Origin: Laccaria trichodermophora
Taxonomy: Eukaryota; Basidiomycota; Agaricomycetes; Agaricales; Hydnangiaceae
Length of the DNA: 64,000 nt
Assembly: GCA_018417955.1 (NCBI GenBank)
Contig: JACTVC010000004.1
Coordinates: 1,178,001 to 1,242,000, forward strand
Reading direction: 5' to 3'
Shown: one piece after another, positions 13,861-20,287 of the stretch
How the letters are laid out: the number at the start of each line of letters is the position of its first letter
Position numbering within the stretch: position 1 is the first letter of the stretch
Position numbers and translations under genes: made by a program
The notes under the pieces: generated by a model
The model's database searches: none
What the model was told of the DNA's origin: nothing
Seen by the model: the letters and a program-made list of their open reading frames with translations, nothing else

Positions 13861-14862
13861 TCAGCCACAGGTACGATATAAGATGCTTCCAATCTCCATG
13901 AATGAATTCCCATTGTAAGGTCCCCTGCAGTACTTTTTAGCATCGGGCCCACTGGCTGCACAATTATACTCACCCATGAAAAAGTTCAACAGCTTTGATG
14001 GGATACCTGGTGGCCCATAATCCCGCTTCCCAATTGTCTGCCCAGTCTTCACATCCACAATAGTAAACGTAAGATACTTCCCCTGTTCCAAATACAGCTG
14101 GTACTCATAAAACCCTTGGCCAGCTGCGCCGTTGGTGGTGTTGGTGTACACCCCACCACCCTGGTGCTGGGGTTGCTTGCCAGGGATGTACGAGCCGGAG
14201 TTGGTGTAGAATGTGAATTCGGCTTGGTTGTTCCCACCACTGTAGATCTCTGCGATGTTGATCTCATCGCAGTCGTGGTAGTGGCTGCTGTTGGGATCGA
14301 GGGGACCGATGATGCAGAGCTCTTCACGGAGGACAACATTGGAGTTTTTACCACTGTCTGGGGCTCCGCACATGGTAATCCAGATGCTCCTATGGTAAGG
14401 TATTCACTCAAGTTTGATATGATATTTAGAGGGAGAAAAATAGAATGGACATGTAGGGAGCGCTACTGTCATTGAACACGAAATCATAGTGAAGCTGACT
14501 TTCAGTGTTGAGGTCATTGATGTCTGATGTTGAACTGAACATCCTGTACCCGTTCAGCCCAGGCTCACTGATTCCAATTGAGTTGTCATAGCCAGGGTAG
14601 GTTTGGAAGTTGAGGAAGTTGTGGGAGACATGACGACAGCTGTCAGGGTCGAGTCTTTGCAGGAAGCTTGTGTTGCTTGTGAGGGCTTTGGCTTTGAAGG
14701 CACACATGGCGACATCAGAGGCAGCTGCACACGCTCTCAATTGTCTTAGGCCATGTGCATGCCTGGTGGAAGTGAGTGACATGCTGTCATAGTTCAAGTT
14801 GGAGATGAGTGTGAAGTTGAATACAGTTGGGCAAATGCCCAAGCTGAGAGGAGAAACTGCAT
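13861..14862 (-). CDS. Secreted 292-aa protein of unknown function
   Basis: Three exons (14862-14825, 14762-14451, 14389-13861) join in phase to 292 codons plus stop; both introns are GT-AG, 62 and 61 nt. The first exon encodes MQFLLSAWAFAQL, a short hydrophobic leader that looks like a secretion signal. A TATAAAG box lies about 50 bp upstream (14914-14920, minus strand), which supports this start over the longer open frame beginning at 14938. The mature part is rich in Asn, Ser, Gly and Tyr, with paired cysteines (LRACAAAS, MCAFKAK, ELCIIGP, HDCDEIN, YNCAASG, KYCRGPY, YRTCG). The C-terminal half has a beta-rich look (YEYQLYLEQGKYLTFTIVD). I do not recognise a domain; a small secreted cysteine-containing protein is the safest description. 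Confidence 0.65.
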
Positions 14863-14913
14863 TGTTCAGTGGGAGTGCTGATTTTTGGTGATTATTCAAC
14901 AAAACAAGTGTAC

Positions 14914-14920
14914 CTTTATA
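14914..14920 (-). promoter_or_regulatory. TATA box of the secreted-protein gene
   Basis: On the minus strand the heptamer reads TATAAAG and lies about 52 bases before the ATG at 14862. It favours transcription starting just upstream of that ATG. Confidence 0.45.
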
Positions 14921-15506
14921 TCCTGACCACAGCTGCATACTATGGCCGACATCCTACCATGGGCACTAGAGTGCCAGCCCCTCGAGTCCTTAGAACCACC
15001 TTAGTGCAACCACTTTGAATGGCCCCCAGATGAGTTGGTCTATTTTTATATCTGACCACATGAACACGTGCCTGTTATTTATTCTGACCTTTTCCAACTC
15101 ATCCTCCTTGCTTTCATCTTTCTCATTCCTCGGCAACTTATCCTCTTCATTGGATTTGCTCAATGTTCTAGCCCATTGTTCTGGTCTCCACACCATTATC
15201 ATTTTGGCTTGCCATACAACTTTCATTGACAACTCCCCACATTTAACACACAGGAAGTGTGTTATAGCTGTAAAGTGTTATTCACAGGAATTAGTACTTT
15301 ATCTGCACCTCAAGATACAGAAACTGAACTGAGTAATTGAAGATTTTGTTTCTTCTCAGTGTATACATAACTCAATCATAGAGATGTTAGAGAAATCATA
15401 GGTACAGAGGATGTATCAACTACTAAGGGGAATGGAGATGAACAAGAAGAAATAGAGCAAATAACGACACATACAAAATTTGACATTTTGCAAAGAAACA
15501 GGATCA

Positions 15507-18500
15507 TTAAAATTTGGATAGCTCTGTATCTTTCTATACATTTTGGAGATGAATATTCAGTGAGCATTGACAGCAAGAAACAAAGCATACCCTCTAAAAA
15601 TTGGGAAATTTTATGACACCAAAGATTCCAAGATGATATAAAATAGAGTTGACTTGCCCACTATATATCTGAAATAAGTGACCAAGTTTAGTAATGTTAA
15701 GAAATACATACTTTCTAAAAGAAAGAATGGTTGAAAGGAGAGGGTGCTAGAATCTGGAAAACATACAAGCTACAACACATCAGCATTGTTGTGTAACAGG
15801 AAATCAAAACATACAATCTGAGTTTAAAAAAAGCACAGATCAGGGTGATGGAAATGAGAATAATGAGTAACCTACATCCTGAAGAAAGGAAACACAAAGA
15901 TGTCATAAAATTGGTCCACAGGGTGCTGAAATTTAACTAACATCCTGGAAGATATTGATTGGGGATTAATCATCTGATCAAAAATAATGTTTAAAAACAT
16001 GTAGATTGAAAAGTGAAAGCTACCAAATAACACTCACAAGATATAGAGTGCAGACATACTTTCTATAAATGAAAAGAATGAGTACAAGAACAAAGTGGGT
16101 AGAATAGATCAGGATAAGAATATAAGCAACTCACCAGCTAAAAAGGACATGTCAAAAATGGGTTGCTCAAAAAATATACAGTGAAGAACAAATAACTTAC
16201 ATACTAAAAAAGATGAAGACAGATATGTGTGATAAGAGTAATTCATGACCAAAAGCAAAGCAGCTTACCCCCTAAGAAAGATGAACCAAAATATATGTTA
16301 CCACAAGAGTGCACATTAAAACACAGGCCAACTCACTTCCTGAAAGAAAGACAGGCCACAGTCTGTGTCACCAGAAGAGTGCACATTAGAAACCAGGCCA
16401 ACTCACCCACTGAAACAAAACAGGCCACAATGTCACCAGAAGAGTGCACACTAAAAACCAGGCCAACTCACCCACTGAAACAAGACAAGCCACAGTGTGT
16501 CACCAGAAGAGTGCACATTAAAAACTAGGCCAACTCACCTGCTAGAACAAGGCAGGCCACAGTCTGTATCACCAGAAGAGTGCACATTAAAAACCAGGCC
16601 AACTCACTGGCTGAAACAAGACAGGCAACTGTATCACCAGAAGAGTGCACATTAAAACTAGGCCAACTCACCAACTGAAACAAGACAGACCACAGTCTGT
16701 GTCACCAGAAGAGTGCATCTTAAAAACCAGGCCAATTCACATACTAAAACAAGACAGGCCACAGTCTGTGTCACCAGAAAAGTGCACATTAAAAACCAGG
16801 CCAACTCACATGCTAAAACAAGGCAGGCCACAGTCTGTGTCACCAGAAGAGTGCACATTAAAAACCAGGCCAACTCACCCACTGAAACAAGACAAGCCAC
16901 AGTGTGTCACCAGAAGAGTGCACATTAAAAACCAGGCAAACTCACATTCTGAAACAAGGCAGGCCACAGTCTGTGTCACCAGAAGAGTGCACATTAAAAA
17001 CCAGGCCAACTCACAAGCTGAAACAAGACAGCCCACAGTGTCACCACAAGAGTGCACATTAAAAACCAGGTAAACTCACATTCTGAAAGAAAGATAGGCC
17101 ACAGTCTGTGTCAGCAGAAGAGTGCACATTAAATACCAGGCCAACTCACTCTCTGTAAAAGTATGATCAGAGCATGAATCTTCAGAAGAGTGCATAGTAA
17201 AAGGAATGCTCACTCACCCCCTAAAAAACACATGGCCAGATTATGTGTTTTAGAAGTGTGCAAAACAAAATGCCAGAAAGCATACTTTCTGAAATATGTC
17301 AAAGCACATTGTGATCACCAGAACAGTGCAAGAGAAAAGGAAAGCAAGAGAATGAGTCACCAGAAGAGGGAATATTCAATAGGGAAACATCTTACCACCT
17401 AAAAATGGTAGGTTTAGCACAGAATTGAGTTTAGAACAAAAGAAATCATAATCACTTACCCACTAAAAAAATCTGTTATAGGCATACAGAGACATTGTGA
17501 ATAGACGACATCTCACCCCCTGGATTTATAAACAAGCATATTAGCTGTATAAGTAGCATCATCAACAGTTATTACTTACTTCCTGGAATAAATAGACAGC
17601 TGATGATAAGATGTGATGTATCATGCAAAATAATTGCCCACAAACTAATAAGAACAATTAGAGTATATTCAAATTTGAAGAATTTGAAGACATACAGTCT
17701 GCAAGAAAAACCACATCAAGAATAAAACTCTGCTTTGCTGGGTAATTATTTTGTTCTTACTTTCTGTGCTTTATCAACAGCAATAAAATGTTATTATGTC
17801 TTGGCTTACATTCTGTAAAACAGGTTAATATTTTATTTTGATACCTTTTAGTTACTGTTTATCACCACATACCTCCTATTCACCTTACAGATTAATTTTT
17901 GAGCAGTATCATTCTCCTGTTACTTACTGTCTGTTGGAAGATCTTGATAAATCAGTGAATATATCCCAATTATAAACTCTTACTTCATAAAAATCAATCA
18001 CTTGTTGAGATAGCTCTGTCAAATCTCTTGTAACAATTGACCCCTGTGATGTCTTGTATATGTTAGAGTGTGATGACTGTTTAAAATTGTAATTACTAAC
18101 TTGGAACAAATGGTTTGCCTTAATCATGCACTGTAACATACTTTTTCTCCCATGAATGCTAAAAGTCAGCATGGTATTACACCATGTCTTGCCCTGAAAA
18201 GTCAATAAATTCTTGATGAGAGTTACCAGAGAGGTTGCAATTGTTTCATCCACATTTAATTCTTGCTCCTGAAATCCTAAGAGAAGATGGTGTGACCATT
18301 TAAAACAAGCATATTCAAGGACATCACCCTCAAAAAAGTCTTTTGAGGGGTATTCTCCCAGATGTTTCAGACAGTGTATGGCCAGATGAAGATGTTGCAG
18401 AGGAGGATCAATGTAATATTGCTCTGATCGTGATTTGATGGTGAGAAAATCCCGGAGAGAGGTGTGATAGAGCATAATGGGCTCATCATCATTTCCAGGA

Positions 18501-19794
18501 ATATTGATAATGGACTGTACTCCCAAGAGCTCACAAACAATATCTTCATTCTGAAGATGGAGGAGAGAGCCAAGGAATGTAATAGACTTGTTGTTGTCTA
18601 GAATGATAATTGTTCCAAGAATTTTATATAACTCCAGTGTCCCAGATGCAGAGGAGAGAACTTGTTCATAAAGTGGATCCAGACCATTGACTCCAGATTC
18701 CAGCAGTTTTTGCAAGGCTTTGTGAGGCATGGGATATCCTCCAACAAATTTAATCAATGTAGTGGCAAATGCAAATGAACTGCCAGCCTTGTTTAGGAGT
18801 ACAGCAAGATCTTTGGCAGATGGCCAGGGCTTTGGTATACTCTGCATCACTCGCAAATTCTGGTCATAGATGCAGTTAAACTGTTTTTCAAAATAAACTT
18901 GGATATCCAAATGAGCATTATAGTTGGCCAAGTCCAGATGGTACAAAAGTTGAGCCCCAGAATGATCAAATTTTTTCCGAATGTGCTCCTCCACCCTGCT
19001 AGTAAGGAGTATTCGGAAAGGGAGATAGTGCCCTCCTGGAAGTGCATTGAGCAAAACATCAATGAAGGCTGCCATTTCAGCCTTATCATTACATTCATCA
19101 AGAGCATCAATAACAAGGATCTTTTGCTTTGCAAGATGAGAGAAGACTTTGAAACTGGAGAGGACTTTGGAAGTGGTGGAATGGATTGGTTCTATGATTA
19201 GCTTCTGAAATTGGTAAGCCAAAGAGACAGATGGCCCAAGAATGGCTGGCTCATCTCGAAGAGCCTTCTCAAGCAAAGGCTTGACAGCAGGAAGAGAAAG
19301 GGACATCTGATGTGCAAGAGTGGGGATCAAGCGAGATATGTGACTCCGTTCACCAGCACCTCGAAGAAAGAAGAAGCACCCTAGAAGACGACCCTTTGCG
19401 GCGTAGCGCTCAGCAATGGTTTGAGCCACTGCTGACTTGCCATAGCCAGCTGGCCCACTGAGCCAGCAGATAGCAGCTCGCTTGTCAGAGCCGTTAAGCC
19501 ACTCCTTGATCTGAGCAATGAGCTCCAGGCGTGTTCCTGGATCACATCGAGCAACGTGACCCGCGCGAGTATGGGTAGCATTACTGACGGGCCTAAGCAA
19601 GCCCGGAAGACCTAGATGCCATGAACCATCTGATAGTATTGGAAAATTCATACTAAACCTGACATACCTGCAGGAGTATGGGCCGGAGAGCCATGAAGAA
19701 CGACGTCGCGGCCGGCGTTAATGACCTGTGCGCTTCCAGATATGGTGGTTCCGATAGCGTTTTGCAGGAGGGCGGTTGATGAAGAAGGTTCCAT
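15507..19794 (-). CDS. NACHT NLR with a tail encoded by a one-codon microexon array
   Basis: Exon 1 is 19794-19668; its product has VINAGRDVVLHG, like the short N-terminal segment of agaric NACHT proteins. Exon 2 is about 19629-17984 (an alternative acceptor at 19611 keeps the frame). It encodes the NACHT ATPase: Walker A GPAGYGKSA, Walker B KILVIDALDEC and the RILLTSR motif, then a helical region. Exon 2 ends GAA before GTAAGA. From there I see 35 units with exactly three bases between an AG acceptor and a GT donor, all phase 0, then a terminal exon 15533-15507 encoding KDTELSKF and TAA. Predicted length is 634 aa (591 + 35 + 8). Without the array the protein would read 12 residues past the donor at 17983 and stop at the TAA at 17924, which is itself part of another donor (GTAAGT). 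NLRs of this type are thought to act in non-self recognition; their C-terminal repeats are the sensor. Start could also be 19854. Confidence 0.75.
15591..17930 (-). repeat. Array of 35 intron / 3-nt exon units
   Basis: Low coordinate and minus-strand triplet of each unit: 17928 ACA, 17873 GAG, 17810 AAT, 17761 AAA, 17696 ACT, 17642 TTT, 17580 GAA, 17517 GGG, 17460 TGG, 17396 GTG, 17286 AAA, 17218 GGG, 17150 AGA, 17080 AAT, 17015 CTT, 16946 AAT, 16879 TGG, 16810 CAT, 16741 TAT, 16672 TTG, 16608 CCA, 16539 CAG, 16472 TGG, 16407 TGG, 16337 GAA, 16269 GGG, 16201 TAT, 16135 CTG, 16060 AAA, 15942 GAT, 15876 GAT, 15815 ATT, 15767 CTT, 15712 AAA, 15591 AGG. Spacers run 45-72 nt except three of 107, 115 and 118 nt. 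Each starts GTRAGT-like and ends YAG. Between about 16337 and 17150 they are near-identical copies of one sequence that includes a GTGAC branch-like site; outside this core they diverge. Confidence 0.8.
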
Positions 19795-19854
19795 GAGTGA
19801 AATGACGTGTCGTAATATGGAGACTAGAAAAGTTTGAAGGGCTGAAGACGTCAA

Positions 19855-20287
19855 TAGGTTGGGCGGTATCGTCGTGGTTGCGGTCAGATCAATCGGAGAT
19901 GAGTTGTGAGAATTCGTTGTCGGAATTCCAATCGGTGACGAAACTCACCGTTCCAAAAATGTGCTCTCACCAACGTCAACTCGCACTAAGTACTGAGCCA
20001 ACTCTTGCGACCAACCCCCGCAAGATTGCACTTTCACGCCAGCTCACTTGTCTTCGCACCTCTCGGCTGCGGCCAGCATTCTGGGTTGAAATCCAACATC
20101 GGTTCACAATTTCAGGGAACAGCCAGTTCGATCACAATTTTTGTAAGCCTCATCACTATAACCCTCTGAATCGTATCTAACAGTTTGAATAGAAGCCCAC
20201 CTCTCTGTCAGAAAACAATGACCATAACTCGCTGCCGACCCTCCCGCGACCAAAAACGAACCTTGCGAAGTGAAATGAAACGAAACG
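19855..20287. other. Upstream region of the NLR gene
   Basis: No coding region is supported. The stretch is of mixed composition and presumably contains the promoter of the minus-strand NLR gene. I saw no clear TATA box. Confidence 0.35.

Follow-up and report, generated by a model that had tools for sequence, protein, structure and literature searches.

Codon-sized exons have been reported before in fungal NLR genes. In Tuber melanosporum, 3-bp microexons were described for the NACHT-ANK (nank) genes (Iotti et al., 2012, as cited in passages of PMC4986451, PMC3689799, PMC10197012 and PMC9815663). According to these passages, the nank genes encode fungal NACHT receptors in which dozens of codon-sized exons are thought to diversify the C-terminal recognition part. 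Another group, the NLRs of the HNWD/HET-E type, carries highly alike WD, ANK or TPR repeats in C-terminal position. In the part of PMC4986451 that deals with them, these repeats are described as concerted, with positive selection on few codons per repeat and with variation of the repeat number. Very small symmetrical exons, which allow frame-safe variation, make up most of the coding region in the schistosome micro-exon genes. These genes are not NLRs, are apparently restricted to flatworms and come with signal peptides (PMC4350168, in the part that describes them).

The window, which is the whole stretch of 64,000 nucleotides that was analysed, contains a NACHT receptor gene; by prediction, the tail of this gene is spliced from 36 consecutive one-codon exons, and it is likely a fast-changing sensor. 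We put the probability of this reading at about 0.87. Like the nank genes, it is an NLR gene whose 3' part holds many codon-sized exons, here seen in the sequence and in one matching protein. However, the Tuber genes are termed NACHT-ANK, whereas no ankyrin match was found here, and Tuber is an ascomycete, whereas the named relatives of the window gene, Laccaria and Piloderma, are basidiomycetes. For the predicted protein of 629 aa, the database protein P0121 and the 100-residue tail of locus L042, Pfam gave no match to WD, ANK or TPR repeat domains up to an E-value of 1, so that the WD-repeat modules of the HNWD type are not seen. The HNWD/HET-E combination of high internal repeat identity and diversified codons appears at the level of the introns and not of the protein. 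In HNWD/HET-E the repeat is a protein module, whereas here it is the intron, and one codon per unit is kept in the predicted message. In contrast to the schistosome genes, very small exons are confined to the tail and the NACHT exon is long. The original prediction had known of no described gene with such a run of exons; in view of the Tuber reports, NLRs of this kind are already known and this statement does not hold. No basidiomycete case was found in the literature searched on codon-sized exon arrays. As far as this literature goes, what is new is a case related to basidiomycetes, its conserved head and end of one-codon exons, and an anatomy in which repeated introns alternate with scrambled codons; Iotti et al. 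(2012) may already hold parts of this for Tuber. We regard the locus as a second, anatomically distinct case beside Tuber.

Table 1. Features of the NACHT gene in the window (positions count from the first letter of the window)
Feature	Position	Strand	Remarks
Exon 1 (predicted)	19668..19794	-	ATG at 19794; reads MEPSSSTALLQNAIGTTISGSAQVINAGRDVVLHGSPAHTPA(G); from sequence
Intron 1 (predicted)	19667-19612	-	GTATGT...TAG
Exon 2, NPHP3_N/NACHT STAND NTPase and C-terminal part	17984..19611	-	ends ...VIDFYE, then GTAAGA donor, phase 0
Likely further in-frame intron, 48 nt	18100-18053	-	within exon 2; weak AAG acceptor; homology to P0010 and P0121
Head, 11 one-codon exons in non-repetitive introns	17286..17930	-	chain search; paralogs
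Head exons 1-6	T17930-28, E17875-73, N17812-10, K17763-61, T17698-96, F17644-42	-	
Head exons 7-11	E17582-80, G17519-17, W17462-60, V17398-96, K17288-86	-	
Hypervariable part, 15 one-codon exons	16269..17220	-	mostly in ~69-nt tandem units
Hypervariable exons 1-8	G17220-18, R17152-50, N17082-80, L17017-15, N16948-46, W16881-79, H16812-10, Y16743-41	-	
Hypervariable exons 9-15	L16674-72, P16610-08, Q16541-39, W16474-72, W16409-07, E16339-37, G16271-69	-	
Tandem repeat, ~69 nt, 12.6 copies	16296..17149	-	85% matches; unit is one intron and one codon
End part, 10 one-codon exons	15591..16203	-	chain search; paralogs
End exons 1-5	Y16203-01, L16137-35, K16062-60, D15944-42, D15878-76	-	junction at K ambiguous
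End exons 6-10	I15817-15, L15769-67, K15714-12, W15660-58, R15593-91	-	W with GC donor (TGG, then GCAAGT)
Terminal exon	15507..15533	-	KDTELSKF and TAA

The predicted product of exon 1 is similar to the N-termini of the Laccaria amethystina proteins P0046 and P0053. Its N-terminus, TTISGSAQVINAGRDVVLHG (19794-19668), we take to resemble the short amyloid-like signalling motifs of fungal NLRs. Exon 2 matches PF24883 (E 1.8e-23) and PF05729 (E 4.8e-9) above the curated cut-offs and thus carries the NACHT/NPHP3_N domain of a fungal NACHT NLR (STAND). The stretch within exon 2 that is likely a further intron is absent from the L. amethystina protein P0010, and its counterpart is absent from P0121. 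In four other loci (L043, L044, L045 and L053), the frame read back from the donor of the array is open for 35-57 codons only, which would fit an intron of this kind.

The 36 candidate one-codon exons lie between 17984 and 15507 on the minus strand, all in phase 0, with 35 GT donors and one GC donor. They translate to TENKTFEGWVKGRNLNWHYLPQWWEGYLKDDILKWR, followed by the terminal KDTELSKF*; the predicted tail starts with TENKTFEGWV and closes with DILKWRKDTELSKF. Joining of the exons in silico gives an open CDS of 1890 nt, which encodes 629 aa and has a single final stop. The sequence and the chain search agree with the original prediction in the coordinates and triplets of the array, in its phase and in the terminal exon, but the count of 35 exons has to be raised by one. 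The additional exon is probably the TGG at 15660-15658, which is followed by a GC-AG intron. Across all arrays of the chain search, 20 one-codon exons have a GC donor, and 16 of these are TGG. The first G of the hypervariable part (17220-18) sits at the border of the tandem repeat.

The 59-Mb genome contains at least 79 NACHT matches. The repeat DNA of the window matched 16 loci, its own included, and in all of them a same-strand NACHT match precedes the repeat; very common words were skipped in this search and the number is therefore a lower bound. An exact 30-base scan of viral_contigs gave no matches. Twenty further loci were fetched, 15 of them picked for their repeat match and five others from the list of NACHT matches. 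Arrays were found in 17 of the 20, namely in all repeat-picked loci and in two of the five others (L054 and L055), and none was present in L056-L058. Likewise, L003, L005 and L008 have no array within 1.5 kb beyond the NACHT match. L060 (C13:635400-638400) appears as a remnant of the family, with DNA similarity to the head and about three recognisable one-codon units, followed by unrelated sequence. In 14 of the 18 array loci, the chain search gave 26 to 100 triplets per locus, the 100 of L042 being counted without its first three. Only part of the chain was recovered in L045, L047, L051 and L054; when longer introns were allowed, L045 reached 46, L047 30 and L051 29 triplets. The longest open NACHT-exon frames of L045, L047, L048 and L050-L055 are short (260-421 aa, in L054 in two pieces), so these genes look interrupted, though most of their arrays look whole. 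An inverted repeat that pairs DNA beyond the array with sequence around the end of the NACHT exon and the first intron was seen in six of eight loci checked (L039, L040, L041, L048, L049 and L052). It measures 149 nt with 74-83% complementarity, in L041 100 nt at 78%, and the pre-mRNA could thus fold back around the array. It was not found in L046 and L047, and no inverted repeat of 30 nt or more lies within 14000-20000 of the window.

L055 is a diverged copy with 30 one-codon exons and 29 dissimilar introns. The mean alignment score of these introns is 0.065 among themselves and 0.053-0.067 against those of the family, on a scale on which shuffled introns score about -0.05 and two closer pairs of copies 0.51 and 0.58. 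Between 5 and 8 of 19 aligned head and end residues of L055 are identical to those of each of 11 copies (permutation P 0.0072 to <0.0002).

For the analysis of exon length, a chain search with a generic splice model was used, which is blind to the meaning of the codons. In the window gene it found 36 units at an exon length of 3, compared with chains of at most 7 units at 16 other lengths (1, 2, 4-12, 15, 18, 21, 27 and 30) and at most 4 units in 300 dinucleotide shuffles. The original prediction had called the fixed size of 3 nt, taken together with the shared phase, the regular spacing and the terminal exon, hard to explain otherwise. The non-repetitive 5' part alone gave a chain of 11 (shuffles at most 3) and the non-repetitive 3' part a chain of 10 (shuffles at most 2), so the effect is independent of the tandem repeat. 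In a second, length-free test with a flat prior on exon lengths of 1-400 nt, exons of exactly 3 nt numbered 512 in the window gene and the 20 fetched loci; the second most frequent length, 28 nt, occurred 13 times, and one block shuffle per locus gave no exon of 3 nt. Within the chains, 485 of 538 exons measure 3 nt. At a K codon near the end of the array (AAA 16062-16060 in the window), the length-free model takes a donor 22-25 nt further on, which leaves the junction there ambiguous. This longer reading (25-28 nt) occurs in 14 loci and accounts for 12 of the 13 exons of 28 nt; it gives a stop or a frameshift in 13 of the 14, all except L044, and the one-codon reading was kept for this reason. 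The remaining 28-nt exon stems from L055, where the model extends a P codon; P0121 does not follow this extension. Missed GC donors were also considered as a source of the 28-nt exons and were ruled out by these longer K and P readings. Exons of 60 nt form another class (eight cases); they span a head intron whose donor is weak and thereby unite the K and W codons.

The one-codon spacing in the window is real and not due to chance. Both chance and a plain minisatellite were dropped on the chain-length and length-free tests. A 69-nt tandem repeat does exist, and one could think of a non-coding minisatellite in which splice-like motifs arose accidentally, but the non-repetitive parts and L055 share the one-codon spacing. 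The avoidance of stop codons and the protein P0121, both described below, contradict this explanation as well, and it retains practically no probability.

The triplets themselves behave as coding sequence. Over 18 loci, none of 662 triplets is a stop, compared with about 47 expected from base frequencies (27.5 among the 348 variable triplets and 19.7 among the 314 of the flanks, each set with its own base composition); as related units are not independent, nominal probabilities for this avoidance would be too small. The original prediction had rated the freedom from stops as weak evidence, which is fair for the one gene but no longer applies to the 18 loci, where the evidence is strong. A looser chain contains one stop in 709 triplets, located ahead of the head in L053. 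With a naive regular-expression parse, an overlapping AG-TAA-GT four bases from the first exon is added in many loci, and L042 and L055 each gain a further stop. Other sites are favoured by the scored chain, with which P0121 agrees for L055. In the paralogs, the head mostly follows the consensus T-E-N-E-N-F-x-x-W-x-K and the end mostly K-x-x-I-L-x-W-R. A short terminal exon of the same type and in the same frame was found in 11 of 15 loci, with the sequences KDTELSKF, RETQLSRLQ, RDTQLSRLQ, KETTLSNF, KETTLSIS, KDTTEL and RDTEL. The terminal exons of L052 and L053 start like this type but run past the usual stop. In L045 and L047, where the chains are incomplete, such an exon is present in the DNA as read by eye, and in L051 the end of the array is lost. 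Only one of the 662 triplets ends in C. Among NACHT-exon codons that stand before a G, 7 of 149 end in C, so avoidance of CpG may explain part of this scarcity.

The central part of the arrays combines near-identical introns with scrambled codons, a feature absent from the original prediction. Identical 66-nt introns occur in 154 pairs of units from the same locus (148 of them from L039, L040 and L041), and the codon differs in 116 of these pairs. Between loci, 361 pairs share identical introns and 333 of them differ in the codon. In 223 units of the 66-nt class, each codon site has an entropy of 1.4-1.9 bits, compared with an average of 0.35 bits (at most 1.24) for intron sites. Six copies with 93-98% identical flank introns have between 6 and 26 central codons, and the longest common subsequence of their codon order ranges from 1 to 8. 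In 22 pairs of copies with an intron divergence below 0.1, the head shows 73 amino-acid-changing and no silent differences in 236 codon comparisons; for the end part, 22 pairs show 21 changing and 6 silent differences in 176 (the pairs overlap with each other). Codons are weakly linked to the variants of the flanking introns (mismatch ratio 0.73 compared with 0.87 when permuted; none of 300 permutations as low). Heptad order of the central codons was tested 54 times in nine arrays; no period stood out (the lowest p, 0.0185, was that of L042 at 3.5), and a higher-order repeat of 7 units was not found either. The pattern fits homogenised introns with a strong diversification of the codons. This diversification would be due to selection or to local hypermutation, between which the pattern makes no distinction.

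Introner-like elements of fungi are near-identical introns that are present in many copies. Had such elements entered an ordinary coding sequence between all of its codons, this would explain why identical introns stand next to unrelated codons. However, introner copies are dispersed in unrelated genes, whereas the repeat DNA, within the lower bound of the search, was seen only at the 16 loci beside NACHT exons, in tandem and one codon apart. The number of central codons varies widely even in the six closely similar copies, an insertion every 3 nt in one phase is left unexplained, and L055 follows the same one-codon plan with dissimilar introns. An origin from introners is thus unlikely.

The protein P0121 is 97% identical to the NACHT piece of L055 over 99% of this piece. 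For L055, the residues KEMQNWNNWIGPITPSWHNGIPKEIIIQWQ had been predicted by the chain search before P0121 was seen. P0121 reads ...ITK-KEMQNWNNWIGPITPSWHNGIP-WASHCYT, and KEMQNWNNWIGPITPSWHNGIP corresponds to the first 22 of the 30 predicted residues, in order and gapless. In unspliced L055 DNA, not more than five consecutive residues of the 22 are readable on the same strand. In L055, a GC donor follows two of the 22 matched residues and three of the four W codons. P0121 also lacks the intron ahead of the first one-codon exon and the intron after ...CFQ, which is present in the DNA of L055 and read through in P0122 and P0123. The frame of P0121 is uninterrupted; the L055 copy in this genome (G000) has an in-frame stop in the NACHT part. 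For the origin of P0121, the database record is limited to the source code lgn and a contig of 2256 nt, with no statement of RNA. We infer that P0121 reflects a spliced message, and a genomic copy made from a message would carry the same implication for splicing. As its 22 residues match the predicted order, we regard it as almost certain that splicing of this kind takes place. The proposal of an NLR tail made of consecutive one-codon exons is therefore supported by the paralogs, by the conserved residues and by a database protein that fits a spliced relative. In an AlphaFold2 model of P0121 (32 sequences), the mean pLDDT is 67.7 and falls below 50 for residues 564-584, which leaves the tail undefined in the model.

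Among 140 listed homologues (the best 120 of 391 and the best 120 of 562 matches), P0121 is the only one with the tail motif, and P0002 ends with QVIDFYEV. A database search with the spliced tail of the paralog L049 (three candidates) gave no match. The single occurrence of the motif and endings such as that of P0002 would suit an array that is mostly regulatory, being ratchet-spliced or retained, with a working protein that stops soon after the NACHT exon (TAA at 17924). The absence of stops from the triplets, the conserved residues, the terminal exons and P0121 itself argue against such a role, and we consider it very improbable. Homologues such as P0002 may have been called as open reading frames without removal of introns. 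That the motif is seen in P0121 alone among the 140 also suggests that database homologues are truncated.

After residue 22, P0121 continues with WASHCYT instead of the predicted KEIIIQWQ. A TGG codon whose GCAAGT intron is retained would read WAS; WASHCYT could not be placed in the DNA of L055. The departure from the predicted order could also be a trace of combinatorial splicing, in which triplets are skipped in many combinations and one gene yields a population of tails. Skipping would be easy and frame-safe, as all exons are in phase 0 between near-identical introns with near-identical splice sites, and alternative splicing of codon-sized microexons is reported for Tuber in the passages cited above (PMC4986451, PMC3689799, PMC10197012 and PMC9815663). 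On the other hand, 22 consecutive codons are present in P0121 with none skipped, and the conserved head and end codons argue for regular inclusion. That such skipping is the main point of the array is conceivable, but we find it doubtful.

For the preferred reading, a tail spliced from all one-codon exons, the following mechanism can be proposed. By intron definition, the short introns would be recognised one by one as units and spliced out successively, and the window gene would presumably be spliced like its sister L055. The intron repeats likely provide the homology for unequal crossing-over and gene conversion, and such exchange would alter the number of units and keep the introns alike, while selection (or local hypermutation) would diversify the codons. 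Because every exon is one codon in phase 0, the gain, loss or skipping of a unit would change one residue and would never break the frame. The variable tail would be the ligand sensor, by analogy with the WD, ANK and TPR tails of other fungal NLRs, for which concerted repeat exchange and positive selection are described in the relevant part of PMC4986451. A further-reaching and still tentative idea is that of a codon-cassette receptor. Here, each residue of the sensor would have its own DNA unit, consisting of a codon and a homogenised intron, and would be rewritten one amino acid at a time by recombination and selection, always in frame; splicing may add combinatorial isoforms, and the principle would be used in two fungal phyla.

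These genes would show that dozens of consecutive 3-nt exons can be joined by a spliceosome as part of the normal structure of a gene, apparently in a second phylum of fungi, and that receptors can be diversified on a substrate of intron repeats. They open to testing how one-codon exons are recognised, with intron definition and stepwise removal as the proposed mode, and how the immune receptors of fungi keep up with what they target. With its codons scrambled between near-identical introns, the receptor would be able to change rapidly. If the idea of the codon-cassette receptor is true, it would represent a genetically evolvable peptide library inside an immune receptor.
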